The translations under genes were made by a program, and so were the position numbers. The notes under the pieces are model-generated. The model saw only the letters and a list, made by a program, of their open reading frames with translations, made no database searches and had not been told where the DNA came from. From the NCBI GenBank assembly GCA_029961745.1, contig CP124680.1, forward strand, positions 5,518,001-5,582,000: a stretch of 64,000 nucleotides of DNA, in the 5' to 3' direction. This document shows, piece by piece, positions 1 through 13,995 of this stretch. This DNA is from Nocardioides sp. L-11A. Its GTDB lineage: Bacteria > Actinomycetota > Actinomycetes > Propionibacteriales > Nocardioidaceae. Position 1 is the stretch's first letter. Every line of letters starts with the position of its first letter.

Positions 1-405
1 GAACGGCCCGTGCTCGTCGCCGTCGGCGGTCCGTAGGGTGTGGGTCGCGGAGGCCTCGTCCCAGCGGACCTCCTCCACCTTCGTGTTCAGCCGGACGCGT
101 GGGGTCACGCCCCACTTCGCGGCGGTGTCCTCCAGATAGCGCTGGAGCTCCTGCCACCCGGCGTGGGTGCGGGTCCAGTCGCTGCGCTCGAAGGAGAACG
201 AGTAGACGTGCGACTCCAGGTCGACCTCGGCCCCGGGGTACCGGTTCTTCCACCAGGTGCCGCCGATGCCCTCGGCCGACTCGAAGACGACGTAGTCGAT
301 GCCGCGCCGGCTCAGCGCGACGGCAGCGGCGATGCCGCTGAAGCCGGCCCCGATGATCGCGACCCGGTGTCCCGGTGCCCGGTGCGCGGGTGCTGCTGAG
401 TTCAC
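1..405 (-). CDS. Baeyer-Villiger-type flavin monooxygenase, N-terminal part (runs off window)
   Basis: FAD-dependent monooxygenase of the BVMO/cyclohexanone monooxygenase class, which inserts oxygen next to a ketone to make an ester or lactone. Only the first 135 codons are inside the window. Visible are a Rossmann GAGFSG nucleotide-binding motif near residue 20 and GGTWWKNRYPGAEVD, which closely matches the GGTWYWNRYPG signature of BVMOs; the FxGxxxHxxxW fingerprint would lie outside. A GTG start at 405 is preferred because GGAGGA lies 6 bases upstream; an in-frame ATG at 420 includes that ribosome site in the coding region and is the alternative. A promoter and AGGTCT-like boxes lie upstream. 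A lactone-opening esterase (1268-2209) nearby supports the role. The substrate is unknown. Confidence 0.85.
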   Translation of the reverse strand, partial: MNSAAPAHRAPGHRVAIIGAGFSGIAAAVALSRRGIDYVVFESAEGIGGTWWKNRYPGAEVDLESHVYSFSFERSDWTRTHAGWQELQRYLEDTAAKWGVTPRVRLNTKVEEVRWDEASATHTLRTADGDEHGPF

Positions 406-449
406 CGCTGTCTCCTCCATCACGAGCCTGGTCAAAGGCTTATTGGTCT

Positions 450-478
450 ATTGTTTGGGTCTTTTGTGAGGGTGTCAA
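450..478 (-). promoter_or_regulatory. Predicted promoter of the monooxygenase gene with GntR-type boxes
   Basis: On the minus strand a perfect TTGACA (478-473) is followed after 17 bases by AACAAT (455-450, 4 of 6 matches to TATAAT). TGGGTCTTTTG (456-466, plus strand) lies in the spacer and TTGGTCTATTG (443-453) overlaps the -10. They resemble the boxes at 8871-8895 and 12131-12220, so repression by the GntR regulator at 9028 is inferred. Confidence 0.5.
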
Positions 479-513
479 GGTGTGCCGGACGCCGCGCGGG
501 CGACGTCCGTCAC

Positions 514-532
514 GCCGGCCGGACCGGCCGGC
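514..532 (-). terminator. GC-rich hairpin just after the SDR operon stop codon
   Basis: A perfect 19-base palindrome (GCCGGCCGG-A-CCGGCCGGC on the plus strand) starts 2 bases past the stop codon at 534-536. There is no T-run, as is common for actinobacterial hairpin terminators. It would separate the long operon from the monooxygenase gene. Confidence 0.45.
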
Positions 533-533
533 G

Positions 534-1268
534 CTACTTGATCTGGGCCGTCCAGCCGCCGTCCACGACCAGATCGGTCGCGGTCACGAAGGCGGCGTCG
601 TCGGAGAGCAGGAAGGCCACGGCGCCGGCGATGTCGTCCGGCAGGCCGAGGCGGCGCAGGGGCGTCCGACTCTCCATGTCGAGGCGGCGCTCGGGCGAGC
701 GCTCGTACAGGAAGTCGATCATCGGCGTGAGCACGGCGCCCGGGCACACCGTGTTGCAGCGGATGCCCTCGGGCCCCAGCTGGAGCGCCAGCGAGCGCGA
801 GAGCGAGACCACCGCGGCCTTGCTCACCTGGTAGGCGTCGAGCGGAGAGTCCATGCCACGGACGCCGGCGGTGCTGGCCACGTGCACGATGCTGCGCCCA
901 CGGCCGTTGCGCACCAGGGGGACCGCCGCGGCGGTCAGCCGGCGCAGGGCATGGAGATTGACGCCCATCGTCGTCTCCCAGACCTCCTCGGAGGTCTCCA
1001 GGAACGAGCCGTCGTCGTCGAAGAGGGCGACCCCGGCCGCGTTCACGAGATGGTCCAGGCTGTCCCAGCCGGCGAGCAGGTCGCGGGGATCCCCGGACAG
1101 CAGGTCGAAGGGGACGTACTCCGCCCCCTCCGGCAGGGCCACCTCAGCGACGGGACGGACATCGGTCGCGCGCACCCGCATCCCGTCGGCGACCAGGCGG
1201 CGCACGATCGCCGCCCCGATCCCGCCGCCCGCCCCGGTGACGAGCGCGGTGCGGCCGGCGGCGGTCAT
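534..1268 (-). CDS. Short-chain dehydrogenase/reductase (SDR), last gene of operon
   Basis: NAD(P)-dependent classical SDR of 244 residues, the usual length. The cofactor motif TGAGGGIG is at residues 11-18, followed by NAAG in the middle and the catalytic YQVSK pair near residue 150; the C-terminus ends VDGGW as in FabG-like enzymes. The ATG overlaps the esterase stop by one base (TGATG), so translation is coupled. It probably oxidises an alcohol or reduces a keto intermediate in the catabolic pathway encoded by 534-8812. The substrate cannot be read from the sequence. A hairpin follows the stop codon. Confidence 0.9.
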   Translation of the reverse strand: MTAAGRTALVTGAGGGIGAAIVRRLVADGMRVRATDVRPVAEVALPEGAEYVPFDLLSGDPRDLLAGWDSLDHLVNAAGVALFDDDGSFLETSEEVWETTMGVNLHALRRLTAAAVPLVRNGRGRSIVHVASTAGVRGMDSPLDAYQVSKAAVVSLSRSLALQLGPEGIRCNTVCPGAVLTPMIDFLYERSPERRLDMESRTPLRRLGLPDDIAGAVAFLLSDDAAFVTATDLVVDGGWTAQIK

Positions 1269-2209
1269 CAGGAGCCGTCCCGCGAGAACGCCGCCGCGAG
1301 CCGCTCGCCGGCGAAGCGCATCGAGTCGACCGCGGTCGGGAACAGTTCCTCCAGGCCGAAGAAGCCGTGGATCATGCCCGGCGTCTCGCACACCTCGACC
1401 GGGACGCCCGCGTCGGCCAGCGCCTTCGCGAAGAGTGCGCCCTGCGGGCGGATCGGGTCGCACTCGGCCAGGACCACCGTCGCCTCGGGAAGGCCGGCCA
1501 GGTCGGCGTCGAGTACGGCGACCCGCGGGTCGGTCGCGTCGGCGGGCGAGGCCAGGTAGTTGTCCTGGTGCCACTGCAGCTCGTCGCGGTAGAGCATGAT
1601 GCCCTCGTAGTCGGCGTCGAAGCCGATGCTCAGGTCGCAGGTCGTGACCGGGTAGACCAGCAGCTGGTGACGCAGGGCGACAGCACCCGACGCGCGCAGC
1701 GCGAGGGCCGTGGCCGCGGCGAGGTTGCCGCCGGCGCTGTCGCCGGCGACGGCGATCCGGGTCACGTCGACCCCGGGCAGGTGACCGGGCTCGGCCGCCC
1801 AGACGACCGCGTCGTACGCGTCCTCGGCGGCGGTCGGGAAGCGGGACTCCGGCCCGCGCCGGTAGCCCACGCTGAGGACCGCGGCACCCGAGGCCAGCGC
1901 CAGGAGCCGGGTCGTCGTCTCGTGCGACTCGATGCTGCCCAGCAGCCACCCGCCACCGTGGAAGTAGACGGTCAGCGGCAGGTCGCCCGCGCCGTCCGGG
2001 AGGAACAGGCGTCCCGGCAGCTCCGCGCCGTCCCGGGTCGGGACGACGACGTCGACCACCCGGGCGACCGGGGGCTTGGCGAGGCCGCCGAGGTCGCCGT
2101 CGAAGTTGGCCCGGGCCTCCGCCACCGGCAGCAGGTGCGCGTTCGGGCGCGGCGAGGCGTGGGCGTCGTCGATGAGCTTCTGGGCGAGGGGGTGCAGCGG
2201 CTGGGGCAT
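1268..2209 (-). CDS. Alpha/beta hydrolase, hormone-sensitive-lipase family esterase
   Basis: Esterase of the HSL (bacterial family IV) group, 313 residues. The oxyanion-hole motif FHGGGW is followed by the nucleophile elbow GDSAGGN; the acid and His are expected in the C-terminal third (GMIHGF). The start is the ATG at 2209, preceded by GGAG; a longer frame from 2323 would overlap the upstream synthetase gene and is rejected. It lies 67 bases after the synthetase stop and overlaps the next SDR by one base. Together with the Baeyer-Villiger monooxygenase it could open a lactone or cleave an ester, which is inference. Confidence 0.88.
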   Translation of the reverse strand: MPQPLHPLAQKLIDDAHASPRPNAHLLPVAEARANFDGDLGGLAKPPVARVVDVVVPTRDGAELPGRLFLPDGAGDLPLTVYFHGGGWLLGSIESHETTTRLLALASGAAVLSVGYRRGPESRFPTAAEDAYDAVVWAAEPGHLPGVDVTRIAVAGDSAGGNLAAATALALRASGAVALRHQLLVYPVTTCDLSIGFDADYEGIMLYRDELQWHQDNYLASPADATDPRVAVLDADLAGLPEATVVLAECDPIRPQGALFAKALADAGVPVEVCETPGMIHGFFGLEELFPTAVDSMRFAGERLAAAFSRDGS

Positions 2210-2276
2210 GACGGCTCCGATCGTCGGTGTCGTGGCGTGCGTGTGGTGTCGTGCGGTCGGTTCGGACGGGCGCGGC

Positions 2277-3659
2277 TCAGACGCGCTCGTAGTAGCGCTT
2301 GACCTCCCAGTCGGTGACGGCACCGGACTCGAAGGAGGCGAGCTCGGCCGCGGCCGACGCGTGCAGGTGCTCGAACACCTCGTCGCCGAAGGCGGACCGG
2401 GCGAGCTTCGAGTGCGAGAACCGCTCGACCGAGTCGTGCAGGGACGAGGTCATCACCTCGACCGACCGGTTGCCCCAGGCGTTGCCGGCGAACACCGGCG
2501 GCGTCGGATCGCCGGCCTCGATCCCGGCCAGGCCGGCGGCGATGGTGGCACTGAAGGCGTAGTAGGGGTTGACGTCGGCGCCCGGGATCCGGTTCTCCAC
2601 CCGGTACGACGCGCCGCGCCCGACCAGTCGGAAGGCGCACGAGCGGTTGTCGTGGCCGACCGCGATCGCGGTGCCCGCGAACTGGTCGGGCAGGTAGCGC
2701 TTGTAGGAGTTGACCGTCGGCGCGAACAGCAGACCGAGCTCGACGGCGTGGGCCAGCTGCCCGGCGACGAAGGAGCCGAACCGCGGCGACATGCCGCCGG
2801 TCTCCTCCGACCAGCACAGCGGTGAGCCGTCCTCGGCGTCCCACATGCTCACATGCAGGTGACACGACGAGCCGACCTCGTCGATCTTGGGCTTGGCCAT
2901 GAAGGTGACGGTCAGGTCCGCGCGGTGGGCCAGCTCCTTGATGCCGTGCTTGAAGAGCACGTGCCGGTCGGCCATCTCGAGGGCCTCGCAGTAGTCGAGG
3001 GTGATCTCCTGCTGGCCCAGGCCCCACTCCGGCTTGGAAGACTCGACGGGTACCCCGAACTTCGGCATGTCCTGGCGGATCTGGTGCACGAACCACTCGT
3101 CCCGCCCGCCCTGGACGACCTGGTAGTCCGACCGATAGTCCGAGAGCATCCGCAGATTGCGGTACTCGGCCTGCCAGGCCTCGGCCGGCGAGACGGCCGC
3201 GACGAAGAACTCCAGCTCCGAGGCGAACTGGAAGGCCAGCCCGTGCTCCCGGGCACGGGCGAGCTGGTGCTTGAGGATCGTGCGCGGCGCCACCGGGAGC
3301 AGGACGTCGGCGTCCCCCTGGTAGGCGTCGCAGATGACCATGAGCGCATGCGGCTCCCACGGCACCCGCCGCAGCGTCGCCAGGTCCGGCACCAGCCGGA
3401 TGTCCACCCAGCCGTTGTCGGCATTCGACACCGGCAGGTCCAGCGGGTTCATCTCCAGGTCGACGGCGAAGACGAAGCTGCTCGCGTTCACACCCTGCCC
3501 CTCAAGGCACAGGGTGCGGAAGGCGTCGATCGTCAGCCGCTTGCCGACCAGGCGACCGTACGGGTCGGGCGCGGCGCAGATGACGGTGTCGACCTCGCCG
3601 CGACGGGCGAGGTCCTCGAAGGTGTCGAGGTCCACGATCGGGCCAGCGGGATGGTTCAC
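2277..3659 (-). CDS. Glutamine synthetase-like gamma-glutamyl-amine ligase, copy A
   Basis: 460-residue member of the GS superfamily (GlnA3/PuuA/IpuC-like), expected to join glutamate to an amine using ATP. Active-site elements are present: ELEFF (metal Glu), the PEWGLGQQEI Glu pair, MAKP, GSSCHLHVS (catalytic His), VNSYKR, DNRSCAFR and the RVENRIPGADVNPY metal/substrate segment. The usual DGSS ammonium-side Asp segment reads NASS, consistent with an amine other than ammonia as acceptor. The GTG start overlaps the stop of copy B (GTGA). It lies in an operon with SDRs and an esterase, with a PuuD-like hydrolase at 13264. True ammonium-using GlnA is unlikely in this context. Confidence 0.88.
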   Translation of the reverse strand: MNHPAGPIVDLDTFEDLARRGEVDTVICAAPDPYGRLVGKRLTIDAFRTLCLEGQGVNASSFVFAVDLEMNPLDLPVSNADNGWVDIRLVPDLATLRRVPWEPHALMVICDAYQGDADVLLPVAPRTILKHQLARAREHGLAFQFASELEFFVAAVSPAEAWQAEYRNLRMLSDYRSDYQVVQGGRDEWFVHQIRQDMPKFGVPVESSKPEWGLGQQEITLDYCEALEMADRHVLFKHGIKELAHRADLTVTFMAKPKIDEVGSSCHLHVSMWDAEDGSPLCWSEETGGMSPRFGSFVAGQLAHAVELGLLFAPTVNSYKRYLPDQFAGTAIAVGHDNRSCAFRLVGRGASYRVENRIPGADVNPYYAFSATIAAGLAGIEAGDPTPPVFAGNAWGNRSVEVMTSSLHDSVERFSHSKLARSAFGDEVFEHLHASAAAELASFESGAVTDWEVKRYYERV

Positions 3660-4921
3660 AGGTGCTCTCCGTAGCGTCGAAGTTCCCAGTCGGTGATGGT
3701 GGTGCGCAGCCAGTGCTCGTAGCGGTCGGCCTCGTTGCGGCGGGTCGCGGCGTAGCCCGCGACGAAGTCCTCGCCCAGCACGGCCTTCGCGTGGTACGAC
3801 GCCTCGAGCCGGTCGGCGGCGGACCGCAGGTCGGCCGGCAGCGGCTCGGCGTCGGCGCGCGGTCCGGCCGGCGGCAGCGCGAGACCCTCGTCGATCCCGG
3901 CCAGGCCGCCGCCGAGCAGGGCCGCGGCGACCAGATAGGGACTGGCGTCCGCGCCCGGGCGGCGGTGCTCGACCCGCGCGCCCGGGACCGAGTCGACCAG
4001 GACCCGCAGCGCGGTGCTCCGGTCGTCGAGGCCCCAGGTGGCCGACTCGGCGACGAACATCTCCTTGTCGAGCCGCTTGTAGGAGTTCACGAACGGGAGA
4101 ACCAGCGCGGTCAGGTCGCCCATCGTCGCCAGCATCCCCGCCAGGTAGCCCTGCGCGAGCGGCGAGACCTCCCCGGGGCGCTCGGCGAAGACGTTGCGGC
4201 CGTCCCGGGCCAGGCTCGAGTGGACGTGCCCGCCGGCGCCCGAGCGGTCGCCGTACGGCTTGGCCATGAAGGTGGCCCGCAGGCCGCGCTCCGCGCACAG
4301 GTCGCGGAAGTACTGGCGGGCGCGGGCGGCGCCGTCGGCGGCCCGCAGCGCGGGCTGCGGCTTGAGCGCGAACTCGAAGAAGCCCGGGCCGAGCTCGGCG
4401 TGGAACGCCTCGACGGGCGCCCCGATCTGCTCCATCCGGTCGACGAAGTCGGCCGCGACCGCCTCGGTCTCCCGCAGCCGGGTCAGGCTGTAGGCGTTCT
4501 CGGTGCGGCCGAGCGGGGCGCGGGTCGCGGCGTCCTCGATCCACAGCTCGTACTCGAAGCCGAGCACCGGCTCCAGCCCGAGCTCGGCGTACCGGCCGAC
4601 CAGGCGGCCGAGCAGGCCGCGCGCCGATGCCGGGATCGGTACGCCGTCCGCGTCGACCAGGTCGCCGATGGCGGCGGTCACGGTGCCGGTGCGCCAGGGC
4701 AGCTCGACCACGGTGTCGGGGTCGACTCGGACCCGGGCGTCGGGATAGCCGTTGGCGGCGCTGCTGGTCGGGGTGTCCGTGACCTCGTCTGTGAGCGAGA
4801 GGCCGTGCACGATCGTGCAGAACGTGAGCCCGTCGCCGTCCAGCTTCTCGGTGCGCACCAGCTTGCCGCGGAGCCCGAGGTCGTAGTCGGGCACCTCCAA
4901 CTGGGTCAGCGCGACGCTCAT
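3656..4921 (-). CDS. Glutamine synthetase-like gamma-glutamyl-amine ligase, copy B
   Basis: A second, divergent GS-superfamily protein of 421 residues directly before copy A. It keeps EYELW (metal Glu), the ELGPGFFEF Glu pair, MAKP, GAGGHVHSS, VNSYKR, DDRSTALR and RVEHRRPGADASPYL, so it looks catalytically complete. It is shorter than housekeeping GlnA (about 470 residues). Copies A and B differ too much to be a recent duplication, so they may act on different amines or form a mixed ring. ATGA overlaps link it to both neighbours. It is not a degraded copy. The substrate is unknown. Confidence 0.85.
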   Translation of the reverse strand: MSVALTQLEVPDYDLGLRGKLVRTEKLDGDGLTFCTIVHGLSLTDEVTDTPTSSAANGYPDARVRVDPDTVVELPWRTGTVTAAIGDLVDADGVPIPASARGLLGRLVGRYAELGLEPVLGFEYELWIEDAATRAPLGRTENAYSLTRLRETEAVAADFVDRMEQIGAPVEAFHAELGPGFFEFALKPQPALRAADGAARARQYFRDLCAERGLRATFMAKPYGDRSGAGGHVHSSLARDGRNVFAERPGEVSPLAQGYLAGMLATMGDLTALVLPFVNSYKRLDKEMFVAESATWGLDDRSTALRVLVDSVPGARVEHRRPGADASPYLVAAALLGGGLAGIDEGLALPPAGPRADAEPLPADLRSAADRLEASYHAKAVLGEDFVAGYAATRRNEADRYEHWLRTTITDWELRRYGEHL

Positions 4922-6012
4922 CGCGTCCCTCCTTCCGCGCTCGGGCGGCGTCGGGGACTGCGGCCGACCCGCTCATAGACAGCGTCCGGCACCAGCGCGG
5001 GATCGCGATAGATCCACCAGGTGCAGGACGGGTTCTCCTCGGTGGCCGGCCAGGTCGGCGCGTCGATGACCCGGGTCGGGTAGCCGAGCCGGTCGATCGG
5101 CATCACCTCGTTGAGCTGGCAGCAGTGGACGCAGTAGGAGCAGACGCCCACCTTGTTCCATGCCCAGTCGTGCGGTTGCGTCGTCACAGCGAAGCCGTAC
5201 GGCGCCGCCGCCCGCGGGCTGCCGCCGGTGATGCCCGCGGCCAGCGAGCGACCGCCGGAGCCGCAGGGGGCGAAGCGGAAGCCGATCCGGTCCGGCTCCT
5301 CGATCACCTCGACCGCGCCGCTGCGGTCGGGGCCGGTCAGGTGGGCGTGGAAGCCGTCGAAGACAGCGACGGCGAGCTGCCGCGCCGACTCGGTCCAGGG
5401 TTGGCTCGCCAGCGCGTAGCGGCGCTCGTGGACGTCGTACCAGTCGGCCATCAGGTGGTCCCACAACTCGCCGAGGGCGTCCTCGCCGACCAGCCGGACG
5501 GCCACGTCGATCATGCCGGACACGAGGTCGACGGCGTCGTCGTGGATGCCCTGCCAGCAGACGCGGGCCGCCTCCACCGCGGCGTCGGCGTCGGCGATGC
5601 CGCCGGTGCGGCACAGCGTCGCCGCGTGCTCGGCGCTCGCGACGTAGTCGCCCCAGCGTGCGGCGATGCCGTCCTCGGGACCCTGGCCCAGGAGCCGGCG
5701 CAGCCGCGCCTCCTCGGCCGCGAGCACCGCCGGGTCGATACCGCGCTCGCGCACCCAGGCCACCGTCGTGCCCGGCCAGCTGCCGTAGACGTCACGCAGC
5801 TCGTCGGCCTCCAGGAGCGACACCTCGACCAGCCGCGCGGCGTCCTCGGACCGCCCTTCGGCCAGCGCGCGGCGCGCGGCGGCGAAGGTGCCCTCGCCGA
5901 GCTCGGCCCACGAGCCGGTCCGGGTGACCCGCCCGAGCGAGATCTCGTCGGCCACGGCGCCGGGCCCGGCGACCAGCGGGAGGGACGGGATCCCCGTCGG
6001 TCCGGTGCTCAT
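4918..6012 (-). CDS. Unknown protein with a Cys-rich C-terminal motif
   Basis: 364 residues; family not recognised. The N-terminal two thirds are predicted mainly helical and charged (ARRALAEGR, AAEEARLRRLL). The C-terminal third carries FAPCGSGGR, then WAWNKVGVCSYCVHCCQLN, then PSCTWW; this cluster of six Cys and one His looks like a metal or cluster site. No signal peptide or membrane segment. The gene overlaps both neighbours by 4 bases (ATGA) inside the ligase/SDR operon, so its product is made with them. It could be a cofactor-dependent enzyme or a scaffold for the pathway; no function is assigned. Confidence 0.7.
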   Translation of the reverse strand: MSTGPTGIPSLPLVAGPGAVADEISLGRVTRTGSWAELGEGTFAAARRALAEGRSEDAARLVEVSLLEADELRDVYGSWPGTTVAWVRERGIDPAVLAAEEARLRRLLGQGPEDGIAARWGDYVASAEHAATLCRTGGIADADAAVEAARVCWQGIHDDAVDLVSGMIDVAVRLVGEDALGELWDHLMADWYDVHERRYALASQPWTESARQLAVAVFDGFHAHLTGPDRSGAVEVIEEPDRIGFRFAPCGSGGRSLAAGITGGSPRAAAPYGFAVTTQPHDWAWNKVGVCSYCVHCCQLNEVMPIDRLGYPTRVIDAPTWPATEENPSCTWWIYRDPALVPDAVYERVGRSPRRRPSAEGGTR

Positions 6013-6788
6013 GTCAGCTCGAACCCGCCGTCGATGCGCAGGTCCGCCCCCGTCACGTACGACGCCTGGTCGGCCAGCAGGAAGGCGATCGCCGCGGCGA
6101 CCTCGTCGGCGCGGGCGAACCGGCCGAGCGGCACCCGGGCGGCCAGCGCCGGCGGCAGCTGCGCGGCGGTGCCGTGCGCCGCGGCCATCGCGGTCGCGAC
6201 GAAGCCCGGCGAGACCGTGTTGACCCGTACCCCCCGGGCCGCGAGCGCCCGGCCCGCCGTGCGGGTGAGCATCGCGAGCCCGGCCTTGGAGGCCGCATAG
6301 GCGGGGTTGGGGTCGGGGTTGCTGAGCGCGATCACCCGGTGCGCCTCGATCGACCCGACGTTGACCACCGCGCCGCCCGCCGCGGCGAACCGCGGCCCGG
6401 CCGCGTCGAGCACCCGGTAGGCGCCCACGAGGTTGACGTCCAGCGTGCGCAGCCAGCTCTCGGAGCCGGCGCCGGCGAACCCGGTCTCGTCGAGGATCCC
6501 GGCGCAGTTGACGACGTACGAGAGCGGGAGACCGGCACGCAGTCGGTCGAGCGTGGCGCCGAGGCCGTTGGCGTCCGTCACGTCGACCGCCGCGCAGCGC
6601 CGCCGTCCGTCGTATCCGCCGTTGCCGTCGGGGACCACCCGGTCCAGGCAGAGCACGGTGAGCCCGGCGTCGAGCAGCAGCGTCGCGGTGGCCGCGCCGA
6701 TCCCACCCGCCGCGCCGGTCACGACCGCGACCTCGCCGGCGTAGGTCAGGCTGGTCCCGCGTGCGTTCTCGTGCATCGCCTCGTGCAT
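6009..6788 (-). CDS. Short-chain dehydrogenase/reductase (SDR)
   Basis: Classical SDR of 259 residues with TGAAGGIG near residues 24-31, NCAG, the active-site pair YAASK and a C-terminal IDGGF. The ATG at 6788 lies 3 bases after the stop of the DUF1116 gene; a second in-frame ATG at 6776 (fifth residue) would remove the unusual MHEA stretch and is also possible. The stop overlaps the next start (ATGA). It is one of three SDRs in the operon and likely handles a different oxidation step from the others. Substrate unknown. Confidence 0.88.
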   Translation of the reverse strand: MHEAMHENARGTSLTYAGEVAVVTGAAGGIGAATATLLLDAGLTVLCLDRVVPDGNGGYDGRRRCAAVDVTDANGLGATLDRLRAGLPLSYVVNCAGILDETGFAGAGSESWLRTLDVNLVGAYRVLDAAGPRFAAAGGAVVNVGSIEAHRVIALSNPDPNPAYAASKAGLAMLTRTAGRALAARGVRVNTVSPGFVATAMAAAHGTAAQLPPALAARVPLGRFARADEVAAAIAFLLADQASYVTGADLRIDGGFELT

Positions 6789-6791
6789 GGC

Positions 6792-8087
6792 TCAGTCTCG
6801 GTCATAACGGTCGGCGTGCGCCGCCTGGGCCGCCTCGAAGCAGGCCCGCGGCGCGCGGATCACGCCGGCGCCGATCTGACCGCCGTCGCGACCGGCCAGG
6901 CCGACGTCCATCACGGGCAGGATGTCGGTCGCGAGGACCTTGCGCACGTCGACCGCGGTCGGAGTCCCCCGGAACGAGAAGAGCGGGATCCGGTAGTCCG
7001 GGTTCTCCCCGTGGGTGATCTCGTACATCTCCTTGTTGCGCTCGATCATCACCTCGGGCGAGCCGCCCTGGTAGTCCTGCAGCGACAGCGCGCAGGCCTG
7101 GGCGAATCCGCCGAGACCGACCGTCTCCGTGATCGGGGACTCCCCGCCCATCCAGGTGATCTCGTCCTCGGTGTGCCCGGCGAAGAGCTTGCCCTGGTGG
7201 ATCGGCGGCGGGCCCTCGAACCACCGGTCGCCGAGCCCGGCGACCTTGATCGCGAAGCCGCGGCAGCTGAACGCCATGGCCGAGACCAGGGTGGACCCGG
7301 CGACGTCCTTCATCGCGTCCGCGCTGGCCTTGGACGCCGCCATCGACAGGCGCAGGAAGAAGTAGTCGTTCTCGGCGAGGTGCAGCATCGTCTCCCGGAC
7401 GTGCGGCACCCCCTCCTGGATCATGTCGAGGACCGCGGGCAGGATCTCGCGGTTGAACAGCACCGAGGCGGCCGCGTTGCGGCTGTGCACCTCGTCGCCC
7501 ATCCGCAGCGCGCGGGCGATGAGCGGCTTGAGGGCGATGCCGCCCTGCCGCCGGATCGCCTCGCCGACGACCGGCGCCAGCACCTCGTTGACGTGCAGGA
7601 GCCGCTCGTGGACGCCCTCGTCGTAGCAGCCGTAGTTGAGCCGACGCGGCTCCTTGCCCTCGTAGAAGTTGCAGAACCCGACGTTGCCGTGGGTCCGGTT
7701 CTCCACCACGAAGACCGGCATCGAGGCGGTGTAGATGCCCGCCAACGAGCCGACCGCGCCGTAGTCGTGGCAGGCACCGACCCGGATCGCGCCGCTCTCG
7801 AAGCCGGCGATCGCCTCTTCGCGGGTGGCGGCCAGGCCCTCGAAGAGAGCGCCGCCGATCAGTGCCTCGCGCTGGCCGCCGACGTACTCCGACCAGGGCA
7901 TGGGCGCCCCGGACGTGAGCACGAGGTCGTCGGTGTAGCCGGGGATCACCTCGCGGGCCGGCCGGACGTCGACGACCCACGGGTCCGCGGCGGTGAGCCG
8001 GGCGAAGGCCTCGGCGTTGGCCGCGTCGACGTCGAGGCCGGTGGCGTCGGCCGCCGGCCCGGTCTCGAGTCCGCTCGCCGTCACCAT
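6792..8087 (-). CDS. DUF1116 (YlbE/AllG-like) protein
   Basis: 431-residue protein of the DUF1116 family. In E. coli the member YlbE (AllG) is one subunit of oxamate carbamoyltransferase with FdrA (AllF) and YlbF (AllH). The family look is seen in GACHDYGAVGSLAG, CYDEGVHER, DEVHSRNAAAS and GLGDRWFEGPPP. No FdrA or YlbF gene is in the window, so its role here is open; it may have another partner or act alone. ATG at 8087 overlaps the preceding SDR by 7 bases; GTG at 8084 is an alternative giving a GTGA overlap. The setting with amine ligases suggests nitrogen or acyl-group transfer, as inference. Confidence 0.8.
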   Translation of the reverse strand: MVTASGLETGPAADATGLDVDAANAEAFARLTAADPWVVDVRPAREVIPGYTDDLVLTSGAPMPWSEYVGGQREALIGGALFEGLAATREEAIAGFESGAIRVGACHDYGAVGSLAGIYTASMPVFVVENRTHGNVGFCNFYEGKEPRRLNYGCYDEGVHERLLHVNEVLAPVVGEAIRRQGGIALKPLIARALRMGDEVHSRNAAASVLFNREILPAVLDMIQEGVPHVRETMLHLAENDYFFLRLSMAASKASADAMKDVAGSTLVSAMAFSCRGFAIKVAGLGDRWFEGPPPIHQGKLFAGHTEDEITWMGGESPITETVGLGGFAQACALSLQDYQGGSPEVMIERNKEMYEITHGENPDYRIPLFSFRGTPTAVDVRKVLATDILPVMDVGLAGRDGGQIGAGVIRAPRACFEAAQAAHADRYDRD

Positions 8088-8812
8088 GCGACGACCCCGC
8101 CGTCGACGAGCAGCGTCTGCGCCGTGATGAAGGACGCCCGGTCGGAGAGCAGGAACTCCACGGCCTCCGCGACCTCGTGCGGCTCGCCGATCCGCTTGAG
8201 CATCGCGTACGACGCGGAGACCTCCTCGCCGCCGGAGACGCGGGCCATCGACGGGCTCATCGGCGCCCGGATCACGCCCGGGGCGACGTTGTTGACCCGG
8301 ATGCCGCGCGCGGCGAGCTCCTCGGCGGTGTAGCGGGTGTACGCCGCGATGCCGGCCTTCGTGGCGCCGTACACCGAGGCGCCGCGGAAGCGGCCGAAGT
8401 GGCCGGTGAGGCTGCCGACGTTGACGATGGCGCTGCCCTCGGTGAGCAGCGGCGCGCAGACGTCGGTGACCCGCGCCATACCCGCGATGTTCACCTGGAA
8501 CATCAGGTCCAGCTTGGCCTCGTCGAGCTCGCCGAGGAACGAGTCGCGCAGGATCCCGGCGCAGTTGACGACGCCGCGCAGCGTCTCGCCCGAGGCGACG
8601 GCGGCGGCCACGGCCTGCTCGACGCTCGCCCGGTCGGTCACGTCCATCACCACGGAGGTCGCGCCGGCCAGCGCCGGGTCGGTGAGGTCCAGGGCGTCGA
8701 CGGCGTCCTTCAGGTCGGCCGCGACCGGGGCGAAGCCGCCCTCGACGAGACGACAGCAGATGGCCTGGCCGATGACTCCGGCGCCGCCGGTGACGATGAC
8801 TTTGCGACTCAC
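8081..8812 (-). CDS. Short-chain dehydrogenase/reductase (SDR), first gene of operon
   Basis: Classical SDR of 243 residues: TGGAGVIG near the N-terminus, NCAG, the YGATK catalytic pair, VDGG at the end. The GTG at 8812 is preceded by GGAAGGGA. It opens an eight-gene chain (8812 down to 534) in which almost every junction overlaps or is under 70 bases, so one transcript is likely. The 215-base region between it and the divergent GntR gene holds AGGTC boxes at 8872-8895. Its substrate is unknown. Confidence 0.9.
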   Translation of the reverse strand: MSRKVIVTGGAGVIGQAICCRLVEGGFAPVAADLKDAVDALDLTDPALAGATSVVMDVTDRASVEQAVAAAVASGETLRGVVNCAGILRDSFLGELDEAKLDLMFQVNIAGMARVTDVCAPLLTEGSAIVNVGSLTGHFGRFRGASVYGATKAGIAAYTRYTAEELAARGIRVNNVAPGVIRAPMSPSMARVSGGEEVSASYAMLKRIGEPHEVAEAVEFLLSDRASFITAQTLLVDGGVVAW

Positions 8813-8870
8813 GAACGGGTCCCTTCCCGACGGATGAACAAGATGGGTCCAGTTTGTGGGCCATTCGATC

Positions 8871-8895
8871 TAAAGGTCAAGTCTTTAGGTCTTTT
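8871..8895. promoter_or_regulatory. GntR-type operator boxes between SDR operon and regulator
   Basis: TAAAGGTCAAGTCTTTAGGTCTTTT contains a TAAAG...CTTTA inverted repeat (8871-8887) and two AGGTC half-sites 13 bases apart (8874-8878, 8887-8891). The same AGGTCT element recurs at 12133-12159 and 12201-12206. A TTGACC -35-like element for the operon falls inside it on the minus strand, which would suit repression. Confidence 0.5.
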
Positions 8896-9027
8896 ATTTC
8901 GCGGACACGGTCGCGGCACCCCAGGACCGATTGGCCCAGACATTCGGACTTTCCGGTCGTCCGGTCCGCTAGCCTGTGCGGTCTCGGAGTGCTGTCATCG
9001 CGGGCTCCAGGAAGGAGGACGGCAGCC

Positions 9028-9762
9028 ATGGACCCGGTCACGCTCGGCCTGACCCCCGTGCGGCAGATCGCCGCGCACGAACTGGTCCTCGACCAGATGC
9101 GCCGCTCGATGGAGAGCGGCCAGTTCCGCCCCGGTGACCGACTGCCCTCGGAGCGCGACCTCGCCGAGATGCTCGACGTCTCCCGCACTGTCGTCCGCGC
9201 CGCCGTCGCCGTGCTCGAGCGCGAGGGGCTGATCGTCGTCCGGCGTGGCCGGGGCGGCGGGTTCATCGTCCAGGCGCCGACCTACGACGCCGCGGAGACG
9301 CGGCGCATGATGAAGGCCAACAAGGCCGCCGTCCGCGACGCCTTCGACTTCCGCGTGATCGTCGAGGGCGCCGCCTCGCGGCTGGCCGCCGAGCGGCGCC
9401 GTGCCAAGGAGCTGGCCGACCTCCGCTCCCTGCTCACCCAGATGGACGCCGCGCTCACGGCGTCCCTGGAGGACCAGACCCCGCACAAGGTGATCGAGTT
9501 CCAGACCCTCGACACGGCCTTCCACATGGGCATCGCCCGGGTGGCGCGCAATCCCGCCCTCTACGACTCCGTGGCCGACGCCCGGCGCCGGATGTGGGCA
9601 CCGGTGGGCGCGATCTTCGGTCGGCTGGAGGAGAACGCCAACGACCGCCACGAGGACATCCTCGACGCGATCGCCGACGGCGACGGCGACCTGGCCGCGA
9701 GCACCATGGCCGCGCACATCGACGACACCCGCCACACCCTCGAGGCCTGGCTCAAGCGCTGA
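9028..9762 (+). CDS. FadR/FCD-type GntR transcriptional regulator
   Basis: 244 residues. The N-terminal winged helix-turn-helix (about 15-80) contains RPGDRLPSERDLAEML and SRTVVRAAVAVLEREGLI, typical of GntR. The C-terminal FCD all-helical effector domain shows LDTAFHMGIARVARN and H-D-I-L..AI..GD..AA...M..HID, where the Asp and His residues usually bind a metal next to the ligand. Start ATG at 9028 follows GGAAGGAGG; a longer frame from 8854 reads through the operator and is rejected. It is divergent from the eight-gene operon and is the likely regulator of 405-13995. Ligand unknown, probably a carboxylic acid. Its 3' end overlaps the convergent SDR by 11 bases. Confidence 0.93.
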   Translation: MDPVTLGLTPVRQIAAHELVLDQMRRSMESGQFRPGDRLPSERDLAEMLDVSRTVVRAAVAVLEREGLIVVRRGRGGGFIVQAPTYDAAETRRMMKANKAAVRDAFDFRVIVEGAASRLAAERRRAKELADLRSLLTQMDAALTASLEDQTPHKVIEFQTLDTAFHMGIARVARNPALYDSVADARRRMWAPVGAIFGRLEENANDRHEDILDAIADGDGDLAASTMAAHIDDTRHTLEAWLKR

Positions 9763-10525
9763 CCGCGTCCGGGTGCTCCGGGAGCACCTGCCCCCCGTCG
9801 ACCACGAGCTCCTGGCCCGTGACGAACGCGGCCCCGGCGCTCGCCAGGTACACCGCGGCGGCGCCGATGTCGTCGGGCTCCCCGAGGCGACCCGCCGGGA
9901 TCACCCGGATCATCGCCTCGATGGCGTCGGCGCCGAGCCCGGCCAGTCCCTCCGTGCGAACGGCGCCGGGACTGACCGCGTTCACCGTGATCCCGTGCGG
10001 CGCCAGCTCCAGCGCCGCCGTCCGGACGAAGCCGAGCTGGGCCGCCTTGCTCGCGGCGTAGACGGCCAGGCCCGGATAGCCCGTGCTGGGCCCGGTGATC
10101 GAGGTCGTCACGACCACCCGGCCGCGACCCGACGCGGCCAGGAGCGGCACCGCCGCCTGGACGGCGAAGATCGTGCCCTTGAGGTTGGTGCCGAGCACCT
10201 CGTCCACCGACTCCTCGGTCAGGTCCTCGATCCGCCGCTCCGGATAGACGCCCGCATTGGCGCAGAGCACGTCGAGCCCGCCCAGCAGGTCGGCGGCCTC
10301 GGCCACCATCCGGTGACAGCCCGCGCGGTGCGCCACGTCGGCGACCAGGACGTCGACCGCCACGCCCTCGCGAGCGAGGCGCTCCCGCGCCGCCGCCAGG
10401 CGCTCGGGGCTCCGGCCGGTCACCACCACCCGGGCCCCGGTCGCGGCGAACGAGCGGGCGATGCCCACGCCGATGCCCTGACTGCCGCCCGTCACCAGGA
10501 CGCGCTGGCTCTCGGTCTCCGGCAC
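9752..10525 (-). CDS. Short-chain dehydrogenase/reductase (SDR)
   Basis: Classical SDR, 257 residues: TGGSQGIG near residue 12, CANAG, catalytic YAASK, C-terminal VDGGQ. The start is GTG at 10525 with a GGAGGAGAAG ribosome site directly upstream; the longer open frame reads backwards through the permease and is spurious. It lies 35 bases after the permease gene, so it is probably co-transcribed with it from the promoter near 12120-12146. Fourth SDR of the island. Substrate unknown. Confidence 0.9.
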   Translation of the reverse strand: MPETESQRVLVTGGSQGIGVGIARSFAATGARVVVTGRSPERLAAARERLAREGVAVDVLVADVAHRAGCHRMVAEAADLLGGLDVLCANAGVYPERRIEDLTEESVDEVLGTNLKGTIFAVQAAVPLLAASGRGRVVVTTSITGPSTGYPGLAVYAASKAAQLGFVRTAALELAPHGITVNAVSPGAVRTEGLAGLGADAIEAMIRVIPAGRLGEPDDIGAAAVYLASAGAAFVTGQELVVDGGQVLPEHPDAVSA

Positions 10526-10560
10526 CTTCTCCTCCTTCGCTCGCGACCGGCGGACCGGGC

Positions 10561-12087
10561 TCACACGACGGTGTCGTGGACCTCGTCGAAGACAGTGCTG
10601 CCGATCCGGCCGTAGAGCTGCGGCCGGTTCGAGCGCAGGTACGCCGCGACGGCCATCGAGCCCACCAGGAGCCCCACCACGATCCAGGGGATCAGCTTGA
10701 AGAACAACGTGTCCGAGGCGGCACCCGCCGCGGCCTTCATGTTCGACAGCATCAGGTAGGTCACGAACAGCATGCCCAGCCCGCCGATGATCGGGGCGGT
10801 CAGCGTCCGCCACCAGTGCGCGGTCTCCGGGTGCTCCTTCTTCACGTGGAAGTAGACGACCGTGGAGACCGAGCAGAGCGTCTGCACGATGAGCAGGCAG
10901 ATCGTCGCCAGGATCGCGACCAGCACGAAGAGCGTCGCGTACGGGTCGGCGTCCGTCGCCCAGCAGACCGCCAGCAGGACGACCGCGAAGCCGGTCTGCA
11001 CGAGCGAGGCGACCCACGGGGAGGCGTGCCGCGGGTGGGCCTCGCCCATCCGGTGCCACAGCAGCCGGTCCCGGCCGAAGGCGAACAGGTAGCGCGCCGC
11101 CGAGTTGTGGATCGCGAGGGCGCAGGCGAAGGAGCCGAACACGACCAGCCACTCGAAGGCGGTCACCGCCCAGCTGCCGACGTACTCGCGGGTGGGTGCG
11201 TAGAGGAGGTCGAACGGGGCGGGGCCCGAGGCCAGCTCCACCGAGCGCTGGGCACCGTTGGCGCTGACCGTCATCCAGGAGATGAAGGTGTAGAAGACGC
11301 CGATGCCGATCACGGCGATCAGGGTGGCGCGCGGGACGATCCGCTTGGGATCCTTCGACTCCTCGCCGTAGATCGCCGTCGACTCGAAGCCGACCCACGA
11401 CCAGAACGCCATGAGCAGGCCGAGCCCGACGACACCGCCGGCGACGTCGTTGGTGCTCAGCGCGCTGAGCGGGTTGACCGAGTCCCAGATGATGCCGTCC
11501 GGGCCGCCGCCCTTGAACAGCACCGTGAAGGCGGTGCCGGCGAGGACCGCGATCTCCAGGACCAGCACCAGACCGAGCACCTTGGCCGCGACCGAGATGT
11601 CGAAGTGCGACAGGACGGCGATCGCGACGGCAGCCACGACGGCGTACGGCTGCCAGCCGAGGTCGATGCCGAGCTGGACCGAGAACGCCTGGTCGGCGAA
11701 CACGGAGAAGATGCCGATCAGGCCGGCCTCCATCGTCATGTAGGTGAACATCGACATGACGCCGGCCGCGAGGCCGGGGATGCGGGACCAGCCCCGCGAG
11801 ACGAACGTGTAGAAGGCGCCCGCCGCCGTGATGTGGCGGGCCAGGGCCACGAAGCCGACGCTGAAGATCGTCAGCACGACCGTGGCGATCATGAACCCGG
11901 CGGGCGCTCCGACGCCGTTGCCGAAGCCGACCGCGACCGGCAGGTTGCCGGTCATCGCCGTCGTCGGCGCCGAGAACGCGACGACCATGAAGACGACGCC
12001 CACCAGGCCGATCGCTCCGGGCTTGAGCCGGGCCTGCTGGGGTGTGGACTCGTCGACTCCCGACGGTGAAACAGGGTTTGCAGACAT
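10561..12087 (-). CDS. APC superfamily amino acid/amine permease
   Basis: 508 residues, about 12 membrane segments, of the amino acid-polyamine-organocation family. Near the N-terminus GLVGVVFMVVAFSAP is the broken first helix seen in APC carriers; ESTAIYGEESKDPKR is the conserved loop after TM6 found in PuuP/GABA-permease-like members. ATG at 12087 with AGGTGG upstream; in-frame codons back to 12174 lie in the promoter. Its place next to amine-ligase genes and a PuuD-like hydrolase suggests it imports the amine or amino acid that the ligases act on. Three AGGTCT boxes sit in its promoter. Confidence 0.9.
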   Translation of the reverse strand: MSANPVSPSGVDESTPQQARLKPGAIGLVGVVFMVVAFSAPTTAMTGNLPVAVGFGNGVGAPAGFMIATVVLTIFSVGFVALARHITAAGAFYTFVSRGWSRIPGLAAGVMSMFTYMTMEAGLIGIFSVFADQAFSVQLGIDLGWQPYAVVAAVAIAVLSHFDISVAAKVLGLVLVLEIAVLAGTAFTVLFKGGGPDGIIWDSVNPLSALSTNDVAGGVVGLGLLMAFWSWVGFESTAIYGEESKDPKRIVPRATLIAVIGIGVFYTFISWMTVSANGAQRSVELASGPAPFDLLYAPTREYVGSWAVTAFEWLVVFGSFACALAIHNSAARYLFAFGRDRLLWHRMGEAHPRHASPWVASLVQTGFAVVLLAVCWATDADPYATLFVLVAILATICLLIVQTLCSVSTVVYFHVKKEHPETAHWWRTLTAPIIGGLGMLFVTYLMLSNMKAAAGAASDTLFFKLIPWIVVGLLVGSMAVAAYLRSNRPQLYGRIGSTVFDEVHDTVV

Positions 12088-12116
12088 GCGCTGCCACCTT
12101 TCGATCAGATGCCGGG

Positions 12117-12160
12117 AGACTAGGCCGAATAAAGGTCTAAAGACAAGACCTACAGACCTA
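12117..12160 (-). promoter_or_regulatory. Permease promoter with triple AGGTCT boxes
   Basis: On the minus strand TTGTCT (12146-12141), an 18-base spacer and TAGTCT (12122-12117) make a plausible promoter. On the plus strand AGGTCT (12133-12138), AGACCT (12146-12151) and AGACCT (12154-12159) form one inverted pair with a 7-base spacer and one direct repeat of 8-base period, overlapping the -35 and spacer. Confidence 0.5.
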
Positions 12161-12199
12161 TTAGTCGAGAACATTTACGCGGCCGAAACCCTGGGCCAA

Positions 12200-12236
12200 A
12201 AGGTCTATTGACTAGTCCTTAAAGCTCCCCTACGCT
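12200..12236 (+). promoter_or_regulatory. Glutaminase promoter overlapped by operator
   Basis: TTGACT (12208-12213), 17-base spacer, TACGCT (12231-12236): a good sigma-70-type promoter 34 bases before the GTG. An inverted repeat AAGGTCTA-TTGAC-TAGTCCTT (12200-12220, 7 of 8 arm matches) covers the -35, so a bound regulator would block it. Confidence 0.55.
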
Positions 12237-12269
12237 CGGCGCGGGCGGAGGACGAGGAGGACGAGGAAC

Positions 12270-13217
12270 GTGAGCACCTGCGGTGTGACGGAGGGCCGGA
12301 GCGCAGTAGGACGGCCCGCGGACGCGCTGGTGGAGCACGCCCACGCAGCCGCCGAGCACGGCCGGGCCGCCGCGACGACCGGCGAGGTCTCGGCACAGAT
12401 CCCGGAGCTCAGCCGGGTCGACCCCGACCGGTTCGGCCTCGCCGTGGCACTCCTCGACGGGACCGAGATCCAGGTCGGCGATGCCGACCGGCCGTTCTCG
12501 CTGCAGAGCGTCACCAAGCTCTTCGCCCTGTGCGCCCTGCTCCGCGACGAGCCGACCGCCTGGGAGCACGTCGGCTGGGACGCCTCGGGCGCCGGCTACG
12601 GCTCGGTCTCCGAGCTCGAGACCCATGCCGGGCGCCCGCGCAACCCGTTCGTCAACGCCGGGGCGCTCGTGGTCACCGACCGGCTGCTCCATCACACGGG
12701 AGATGCTGCCGGAGCCGTCACCGACCTGCTCCGCGACCTCGGCGGCGAGCACGTCCAGCGCGACCGCCGGGTCGCGCTCTCCGAGGCGGCCCACGACCAC
12801 CGCAACCGGGCGATCGCCCACGTGCTGGCCGAGCACGGCCGCCTGCTGCACGGAGTCGACGCCGTGCTCGCGCAGTACTTCGAGCAGTGCTCGATCACCG
12901 CGTCCGCGCTCGCCGTGGCCCGCGCGGCGCTCCTCCTCGCCGACCGCACGGGTGCGCGCGGGCCGCTCGATGCCGCCGCCGTACGACGGGTCAACGCCGT
13001 GCTCCTCACCGCCGGGATGTACGGCGCGGCCGGCGACATCGCCTACCGCGTCGGACTGCCGGCCAAGAGCGGCATCGGCGGTGGCGTCGTGGCGGTCCTC
13101 CCCGGAGTGGGCTCGATCTGCGTGTGGAGTCCGCGGCTGGACCGGGCGGGCAACTCCACCGGCGCCGTGGCCGCCATCGAGGAGTTCGCGCGCCTGGCCG
13201 GCTGGTCCGTGTTCTGA
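12270..13217 (+). CDS. glsA: Glutaminase (serine-type, GlsA family)
   Basis: 315 residues, the usual size for GlsA, which hydrolyses L-glutamine to glutamate and ammonia in the cytoplasm. Family marks: the catalytic Ser-x-x-Lys in FSLQSVTKLFAL, NPFVNAGAL, the Tyr-containing YFEQCSI segment and the C-terminal PAKSGIGGGVVAV and NSTGA. GTG at 12270 is preceded by a GAGGA site. It is 46 bases before the PuuD-like gene, so the pair is likely an operon. Beside amine ligases it may supply glutamate as co-substrate, or hydrolyse a gamma-glutamyl amide; this is inference. Confidence 0.92.
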   Translation: MSTCGVTEGRSAVGRPADALVEHAHAAAEHGRAAATTGEVSAQIPELSRVDPDRFGLAVALLDGTEIQVGDADRPFSLQSVTKLFALCALLRDEPTAWEHVGWDASGAGYGSVSELETHAGRPRNPFVNAGALVVTDRLLHHTGDAAGAVTDLLRDLGGEHVQRDRRVALSEAAHDHRNRAIAHVLAEHGRLLHGVDAVLAQYFEQCSITASALAVARAALLLADRTGARGPLDAAAVRRVNAVLLTAGMYGAAGDIAYRVGLPAKSGIGGGVVAVLPGVGSICVWSPRLDRAGNSTGAVAAIEEFARLAGWSVF

Positions 13218-13263
13218 GCGCCCGGACTCCCCGCCCCCGAACGAACCCTGGACTGGAGATCGC

Positions 13264-13995
13264 GTGACCACCCTCCCCCTCGACCGGCCGCTCGTCGGCA
13301 TCACCTACAGCTCCGCGGAGCTCGCGGAGTTCTTGCTGTGGCGCAGCATGTTCCGCGGCGTGGTCGCCGCCGGCGGCGTACCGCTGGCGATCGACTGTCG
13401 CGACCCGCAGCCCGACATCGCCGACCTGGTCGGCCGACTCGACGGCCTCGTCATCAGCGGCGGCGGCGACGTCGACGCCCGCCGGTACGGCGCCTCGCCG
13501 GACGACCCGCTGCTGCGCGGGGTCAACCCGCACCGGGACGAGGCCGAGCTCGCCGCCCTCGACGCGGCCGTGGCCCACGGCCTCCCCGTGCTGGCGATCT
13601 GCCGCGGCGCCCAGCTGGTCAACGTCGCCCGCGGCGGCACCCTCTACGTGGACCTGGGGCGTGACCTGCCCTCCGAGCTACGCCACCGGGAGAGCGAGGA
13701 GGCGCTCGGCGAGCCGCTGCACGACGTCGAGGTGGTCGGCGGGACGACGCTGGCCGCGTGGACCGGAGGCGGCACGATCGGCGTCAACAGCCAGCACCAC
13801 CAGGGCATCCGCACGCTGGCCGACGGGCTCGTGCCGAGCGCCCACGCCCCGGACGGCCTGGTCGAGGCGTTCGAGGACCCGCGGGCCCGGCTCGTCGCGA
13901 TCCAGTGGCATCCCGAGGTGCTCTGGCCCGCGATGGACCACGCGCTCGGGCTGCTGAGCGGGTTCGTCGGGGAGTGCGGCGGGCCTCGTGTCTAG
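13264..13995 (+). CDS. Gamma-glutamyl-GABA hydrolase-like class I amidotransferase (PuuD family)
   Basis: 243 residues, close to PuuD (254). The nucleophile Cys is in LAICRGAQLVN, the His-Glu pair in IQWHPE, and SGGGDVDARRYG near residue 60 is typical of peptidase C26. Such enzymes release glutamate from gamma-glutamyl amines or gamma-glutamyl-GABA, the step that undoes the GS-like ligase reaction. GTG at 13264 with GGAG upstream. Follows the glutaminase in a probable two-gene operon. The last bases overlap the convergent histidine kinase gene by 4. Confidence 0.9.
   Translation: MTTLPLDRPLVGITYSSAELAEFLLWRSMFRGVVAAGGVPLAIDCRDPQPDIADLVGRLDGLVISGGGDVDARRYGASPDDPLLRGVNPHRDEAELAALDAAVAHGLPVLAICRGAQLVNVARGGTLYVDLGRDLPSELRHRESEEALGEPLHDVEVVGGTTLAAWTGGGTIGVNSQHHQGIRTLADGLVPSAHAPDGLVEAFEDPRARLVAIQWHPEVLWPAMDHALGLLSGFVGECGGPRV

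Follow-up and report, generated by a model that had tools for sequence, protein, structure and literature searches.

Two glutamine-synthetase-like ligases and a distinct AllG subfamily in a conserved actinomycete gene island, a candidate regulon for glutamylation-dependent amine catabolism

The gene island described here belongs to Nocardioides sp. L-11A, whose genome is a single contig of 5,684,321 bases (CP124680.1, labelled G000:C1). The window, which is the whole stretch of 64,000 nucleotides that was analysed, covers positions 5,518,001-5,582,000 of this contig. The island occupies positions 1-13995 of the window and extends past its edge to G000:C1:5516930. Fourteen genes were checked for frame, start, stop, motifs and Pfam domains, and ten of the 14 were also run against NCBIfam. 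Two of the genes encode ligases similar to glutamine synthetase (GS), one encodes a member of the AllG/DUF1116 family and one a protein of no known family, which we call UNK. An earlier annotation made from the letters alone (the sequence-only reading) had proposed an amine-degradation island at this place, and every enzyme class that it named is present. It overlooked AllG and UNK and did not list the regulator of the GntR family. AllG and UNK are situated in the middle of the operon and distinguish the island from the puu, ipu and atd routes.

The core of the island is a contiguous run of minus-strand genes in the order SDR3-AllG-SDR2-UNK-GSa-GSb-HSL-SDR1. The first gene of the operon, SDR3 (8081..8812), codes for a short-chain dehydrogenase (SDR) and is followed by AllG (6792..8087), a second short-chain dehydrogenase gene, SDR2 (6009..6788), UNK (4918..6012), the ligase genes GSa (3656..4921) and GSb (2277..3659), HSL (1268..2209) and SDR1 (534..1268), another dehydrogenase gene. 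According to the coordinates, overlaps of 1-7 bases occur at SDR3/AllG, SDR2/UNK, UNK/GSa, GSa/GSb and HSL/SDR1. AllG and SDR2 are separated by 3 bases, GSb and HSL by 67 bases, and SDR1 by 113 bases from the next gene, which encodes a type I Baeyer-Villiger monooxygenase (BVMO). Only the 5' end of the BVMO gene (1..420, minus strand) lies in the window, where Pfam recognizes the start of an FAD oxidoreductase. The complete frame comprises 501 aa, or 496 aa from the ATG (stretch L006, 8930-10435), and carries FEGDLCHTSTWP, which matches FxGxxxHxxxWP, presumably the fingerprint of type I enzymes. Its top PDB match is a cyclohexanone monooxygenase. HSL is an Abhydrolase_3 esterase/amidase-like hydrolase with the motifs HGGG and GDSAG, and scores below the cut-offs of the NCBIfam models for LipP1 and chloramphenicol hydrolase.

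Divergent from the operon, the gene of a GntR-family regulator with FCD and GntR domains in Pfam is found on the plus strand (9028..9762). Next to it are SDR4 (9752..10525, minus strand) and the gene of an APC-type permease with an AA_permease_2 domain (10561..12087, minus strand), for which the start at 12087 is preferred, the frame being open up to 12174. The plus strand continues with the glutaminase gene GLS (12270..13217; Pfam Glutaminase) and the gene of a PuuD-like hydrolase (13264..13995). The latter has a Peptidase_C26 domain and the motifs CRG and WHPE, whose Cys and His we take to be catalytic. This agrees with the class I amidotransferase with PuuD features of the sequence-only reading, and the hydrolase is assigned a putative PuuD-type hydrolysis of gamma-glutamyl amides. 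All four SDRs contain an adh_short_C2 domain and the motif YxxxK.

SDRs, BVMOs and hydrolases are also common tailoring enzymes, so that a biosynthetic cluster making a small metabolite instead of degrading one has to be considered. The glutaminase, the Peptidase_C26 hydrolase and the uptake-type permease argue against it, no typical biosynthetic core enzyme is found among the 14 genes, and in Rhodococcus the island is followed by acs (see below). We regard this explanation as the least probable of those considered.

The two ligases, GSb and the 421 aa GSa with its short N-terminus, have Gln-synt_C domains (274 and 248 bits, cut-off 24). Their active sites had been described as intact. That holds for the residues which we take to be glutamate and ATP ligands, all kept in both ligases, but not for the ammonium-site Asp and the flap Glu, which are replaced in both. 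In an automatic alignment with seven GSb and seven GSa rows of the island type, the position of Asp50 of the housekeeping GS is occupied in GSb by Asn (six of seven) or His (one of seven) and in the GSa rows by Thr, Arg, Thr, Ala, Ala, Asn and Ser, so that none of the 14 rows has Asp there. At the position of the flap residue Glu327, 13 of the 14 rows have Phe and one has Tyr. The housekeeping GlnA model TIGR00653 yields 187 and 155 bits (cut-off 429), and the ammonium-site Asp being gone, the ligases fail as GlnA on both counts. The genome holds five GS-domain genes, and two of those outside the island bear the housekeeping motif FDGSS or FDGSA.

Similar losses have been described for other ligases. 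In the Streptomyces ligase GlnA4, D50 and E327 are not conserved, the flap carries a Phe, and the ammonium-pocket Tyr is replaced (PMC6529630). For the aromatic-amine ligases NpaA1 and AtdA1 (GoaS), which are GS-like, lack Asp50' and the flap Glu and head an oxidative pathway, it is stated that these losses could explain why such ligases do not use ammonium (PMC11335346). The PDB matches of GSb include the NpaA1-type structure 8wwu. Both island ligases thus share the residue losses of published glutamyl-amine ligases, which supports the use of an organic amine without proving it.

One could also suppose that a known route, polyamine utilization by PuuA-PuuD or ethanolamine utilization by GlnA4, has merely gathered extra genes. 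A GS-like ligase with Phe at the flap, an SDR, a GntR regulator, a permease and a class I amidotransferase also form the Streptomyces glnA4 cluster (PMC6529630), and Peptidase_C26 occurs with Gln-synt_C as in puu. However, the ligases remain far below the cut-off of NF045547, the NCBIfam gamma-glutamylputrescine synthetase (PuuA) model (176.4 and 167.6 against 650 bits). The glnA4 cluster includes an aldehyde dehydrogenase, while no Aldedh domain was found by Pfam among the 14 genes. The island differs further in having two ligases, four SDRs, a glutaminase and a kept ammonium-pocket Tyr, and its AllG, UNK, BVMO and HSL have no role in polyamine or ethanolamine routes. An extended known route thus appears unlikely. 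In the NpaA1/AtdA1 systems the next enzyme is a dioxygenase system (PMC11335346); the 14 genes of the island show none and include SDRs and a BVMO instead. With the ipu (isopropylamine) and puu (polyamine) pathways, as cited in the same paper, the island shares the GS-like ligase as first step. From these pathways the island differs in the missed PuuA cut-off, the sequence comparison covering the ligases only.

The AllG protein belongs to PF06545 (255 bits, cut-off 27), a family with a solved structure, 3clq. In E. coli, AllG is part of the oxamic transcarbamylase AllFGH. Single mutants of allFGH gave 0, 0 and 1.2 mM oxamate compared to 17.7, and two-gene complements reached 7% with allFG and 16% with allGH (PMC11326118). 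The island shares with this system only the AllG family: neither AllF nor AllH was found by Pfam among its 14 genes, and its AllG stands in a separate clade and in the company of GS-like ligases. A tree was calculated from 39 sequences, 12 from islands, 15 from a second mycobacterial clade and 12 AllH-linked copies from Nocardioides genomes. A branch with 100/100 support separates the island and second-clade sequences from the 12 AllH-linked copies, with a long-branch warning that concerns above all L109. In 33 of 42 discriminating alignment columns (groups differing, with at least 90% agreement within each) the island and second-clade sequences agree against the AllH-linked group.

All 12 AllH-linked copies have AllH within about 3 kb, and no GS-like gene was found in any of these 12 short loci. 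Both AllG types coexist in the genome of strain L-11A, where the other copy (L128, G000:C1:1526001-1545900) lies near the only AllH of the genome (C1:1537279) and has no GS-like gene within 20 kb. In the second clade, 11 of 15 copies have a GS-like gene within the locus of about 4 kb, and for L102 and L103 one is found a few kb away in the longer stretches L125 and L126. Only a permease and a regulator are in view for L110, and L109 has no GS-like gene even across 20 kb (L127). Further company of the second-clade AllG consists of Peptidase_C26, glutaminase, APC-like or PF02133 permeases and a LacI regulator. The mycobacterial clusters L120 (7790-13926) and L122-L126, in which AllG is combined with a GS-like ligase, Peptidase_C26 or glutaminase, a PF02133 permease and LacI, look unrelated to the island and represent a second setting of GS-linked AllG.

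In a mycobacterial genus, 18 of 198 genomes hold GS-linked AllG at E <= 1e-100. AllH was detected in two of the 198 (G636 and G644), both among the 18, and the AllF model exceeds its cut-off in 14 of the 198. Within the 18, AllF is above the cut-off in G644 and just under it in G636 (428 against 433 bits); the other 16 have no AllH and weak or no AllF matches. Two Nocardioides genomes, G033 and G035, likewise contain the island AllG, with AllH not found. The GS-linked AllG subfamily therefore mostly lives without its known partners. What is new is that AllG of the island's subfamily accompanies GS-like ligases in further clusters as well, mostly without AllF and AllH. Judged by listings of the open literature, which leave subscription papers and preprints outside the scope, we recognized no paper that links DUF1116/AllG to GS-like ligases.

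These distributions bear on the idea that the island scavenges nitrogen from ureides or amides, with AllG acting as in oxamate carbamoyltransferase and yielding carbamoyl phosphate. AllG is a member of PF06545, the related mycobacterial clusters have permeases of PF02133, a family that includes allantoin carriers, and the two-gene complements of E. coli keep some activity. Against this stand the lack of AllF and AllH in the island and in most mycobacterial genomes with this subfamily, the lack of AllH in G033 and G035, the position of the island AllG outside the AllH-linked clade, and the fact that Pfam found no carbamate kinase among the 14 genes. We consider nitrogen scavenging of this kind quite unlikely.

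For UNK (364 aa) no Pfam or NCBIfam match was obtained at E <= 0.001, and a scan of 18 homologues at E up to 10 produced no family shared by two or more of them. Among 7992 scored candidates, 408 are homologues at E <= 0.001; in the best 120 of these, the proteins whose source is named are annotated as hypothetical, and the closest named ones among the matches listed are from Nocardioides. In the C-terminal part, C250, H281, C291, C294, H296, C297, C298 and C330 are invariant in the 18 homologues, and the same eight positions are again invariant in 31 C-terminal rows. From this pattern, UNK may have a metal site. A ligand-binding fold of the V4R/Bet3/H-NOX type was considered as a candidate for its C-terminal domain. 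A shorter relative (255 aa) is encoded by the Rhodococcus jostii RHA1 plasmid pRHL3 (L085, 11848-12615). It keeps six of the eight Cys/His residues and lies in an operon with 2-oxoacid-dehydrogenase-type subunits adjoining an IS3 transposase gene. Pfam gave nothing better than E 0.1 for it and NCBIfam nothing at all; it belongs to a family with hundreds of unnamed members, 684 of 1253 candidates being related to it at E <= 0.001.

In one UNK-based scan of genome contigs, 30 related loci were identified and evaluated by a tblastn matrix of the window proteins and a count of gene order. Their sources are Nocardioides, mycobacteria, Rhodococcus and Gordonia. All 30 have a GS-like gene no more than 3 kb from UNK, and 19 keep the order SDR3-AllG-SDR2-UNK-GSa-GSb-HSL-SDR1-BVMO unbroken. 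Among the remaining 11 loci, L014, L019 and L025 are cut by contig ends, and L021 has GSa in two pieces. SDR2 was not detected in L035, where an acyl-CoA-ligase-like gene (by likeness) is inserted between GSa and GSb. In L034, L037 and L038, SDR4 sits between AllG and SDR2, and the downstream end, where in reach, lacks a BVMO. L032 and L040 are arranged differently, and L030 is taken up below. AllG was found in 26 of the 30 loci and is 77-87% identical in 24, the near relatives L011 and L012 set aside. The distribution of the island is patchy: UNK is present in seven of 215 genomes of the genus, one of them marginal (E 8.9e-4), and in two of 394 genomes drawn from the class, the own genome included. 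The island is also carried by plasmids of Rhodococcus, namely R. pyridinivorans SB3094, R. opacus 1CP and JS3073. One island-bearing Rhodococcus plasmid comes from a chlorophenol-enriched strain, and in SB3094 genes of IS21 and IS1380 lie within 12 kb of the island.

The three promoter regions of the island share the motif GGTCTWWW, always on the plus strand. Two copies lie in the BVMO promoter region (445-452 and 458-465), one lies in the divergent SDR3/GntR region (8888..8895), and two lie in the permease/glutaminase region, within AGGTCTAAAGAC (12134..12141) and AGGTCTATTGAC (12202..12209). These five are the only matches in the 64 kb; shuffled sequences gave 0.61 on average (standard deviation 0.83, largest 4), and none of 100 shuffles reached five. 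The relatives were examined with the longer form GGTCTWWWGAC in 65 promoter regions (21 SDR3/GntR, 22 permease, 22 BVMO) of the window and 21 of the 30 loci, the other nine being without those regions or differently arranged. With up to two mismatches, 20 of 21 SDR3/GntR, 20 of 22 permease and 19 of 22 BVMO regions contain the motif, in total 138 sites, while shuffled sequences average 12.5 (maximum 22). When one mismatch is allowed, 11 of 22 permease and 11 of 22 BVMO regions are positive, in total 37 sites compared to 1.05 (maximum 6). Common ancestry of the loci, with L011 and L012 closely related, makes these totals look more independent than they are; the presence of the motif at three different promoters of a single genome is unaffected by this kinship. 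The exact 12-mer AGGTCTWWWGAC occurs twice in the own genome, both times between permease and glutaminase. With one mismatch it gives six matches in all compared to 12 for a reversed control, and only the exact matches are informative.

Conserved gene order and a motif that is found at all three promoters and again in most relatives suggest that the genes form one regulon, and the GntR protein may be what binds the motif. The genes are linked in the relatives and seem to be regulated together there, contrary to the unlinked, separately regulated genes that would have refuted the sequence-only reading. The conserved order across genera and the shared motif show a cluster beyond chance, probably a conserved, co-regulated catabolic unit. 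They also bear on detoxification, in which the ligases would do no more than mask a toxic amine, the oxidative enzymes having another purpose. Glutamylation has been discussed as amine detoxification (PMC11841054). Yet the oxidative enzymes share the motif and the conserved order with the ligases, and the Peptidase_C26 hydrolase and the glutaminase fit recycling and not storage, which makes detoxification improbable.

Taken together, we give a probability of about 0.65 to the reading that the island is a GntR-linked, patchily distributed regulon of glutamylation-dependent amine catabolism. Several observations weigh against it. The motif was chosen after the promoter regions had been viewed, so the count in the window is no independent test. 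At one mismatch it is found in none of the 21 SDR3/GntR regions; since it is present there at two mismatches, that site is a weaker version. A scan of 11 relatives for GGTCTWWW found no copy in L013 or L037 and a single one in L035, which falls within the HSL gene; in two Rhodococcus plasmids, one copy each is likewise intragenic. L030 is an otherwise similar island without AllG. The ammonium-pocket Tyr (Tyr179 position) is retained in both window ligases, unlike in GlnA4. The acs or acs-like gene of four Rhodococcus loci has no preceding motif, and acs was not found in the loci of other genera. Finally, the regulon is predicted from sequence.

Within the proposed regulon, the APC permease would, judging from its family, import an amine. 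At least one of the ligases, most likely GSb, would then join the amine to glutamate at the expense of ATP, as residues and context suggest. The SDRs may oxidize hydroxyl groups to carbonyls, possibly on the glutamylated form. From their families, the BVMO would convert a ketone to an ester and the HSL hydrolase would cleave it, and the Peptidase_C26 hydrolase and glutaminase could recover glutamate and ammonia. The GS-linked AllG might perform a further step on the conjugate or its product, without AllF and AllH. A coherent but hypothetical substrate would be an amine that bears a CH(OH)CH3 group and gives off acetate through the action of BVMO and esterase. Acetate as product is suggested only by acs, which lies downstream of the island in three Rhodococcus loci (L024, L084 and L133), and by an acs-like gene (39%) in a fourth, L134; the fifth Rhodococcus locus, L032, has a different layout and no acs. 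That acs is a general member of the regulon was considered and dropped, as it adjoins the island only in Rhodococcus and no motif precedes it. The full order of these steps is doubtful. Somewhat below even odds we place the extended proposal that the AllG subfamily left AllFGH as a stand-alone gamma-glutamyl-amine enzyme and acts with the Cys/His-rich, probably metal-binding UNK family, the two ligases and the BVMO/esterase pair in an amine degradation with at least two unknown reactions. Of the earlier interpretation, linkage, apparent co-regulation and the residue losses of amine ligases are borne out; the opening of a ketone ring is not, as nothing in the data points to a cyclic substrate.

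We rate the island as working like the gamma-glutamylation routes, but as an uncharacterized variant of them, since it fails the comparisons with PuuA, GlnA, the AllFGH partners and the glnA4 cluster. The literature on GS and BVMO clusters, cyclic amines, isopropylamine and aminopropanol yielded no matching pathway. A paper on molinate was discarded as a precedent, its available text mentioning only an overexpressed glutamine synthetase (PMC9477822). Glutamylation is a common way of making amines degradable, but only a few of these pathways have been elucidated. The island gives a defined biochemical setting to its two main points of interest, the GS-linked AllG subfamily and UNK. Given the conservation across genera of soil actinomycetes and on Rhodococcus plasmids together with the distinctive motif, the inducer can be sought directly.

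In three genomes of the genus (G033, G035 and G457) the components are split into a second arrangement. Glutaminase, Peptidase_C26, BVMO, SDR3, AllG and GSa are 48-87% identical to their island counterparts, AllG alone 86-87%; SDR3, AllG and GSa are outside the stretch examined from G457. The permease (33-34%), GSb (40-41%) and UNK (36-38%) have diverged. As these are only 33-41% identical while AllG stays at 86-87%, they look substrate-specific, and we infer that a substrate-specific front module may have been swapped before a common lower module. If true, interchangeable substrate-activating modules would feed one common intermediate. Six copies of GGTCTWWW are found in the four stretches of this arrangement, all intergenic. 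A reductase gene (67%) that also occurs in this second Nocardioides arrangement is present in the Rhodococcus wratislaviensis locus L032 (7005-11023), which has UNK (58%) and only a distant relative of GSb (40%).

Some loci contain additional genes of the same kinds. A third GS-like gene (37% to GSb) and a BVMO-like gene (31-32%) lie next to the island in L013 (1930-6483) and at the left ends of L034, L037 and L038; this third GS-like gene also neighbours a gene with a relative that was assigned by eye to the iron alcohol dehydrogenases. The contig of L034 is labelled as a metagenome-assembled genome (MAG) of Bifidobacterium breve, and its arrangement is the same as in the Actinomycetota MAGs L037 and L038, so that a binning or label error is probable. 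In strain L-11A a second BVMO-like gene adjoins the island on the opposite strand, left of the window (L006, 5352-7016, FVGRVLHSAQWP). The neighbours in L006 (1003-8805), judged by eye, are parts of an ABC transporter, an amidohydrolase, an alpha/beta hydrolase and a DapA-like protein.

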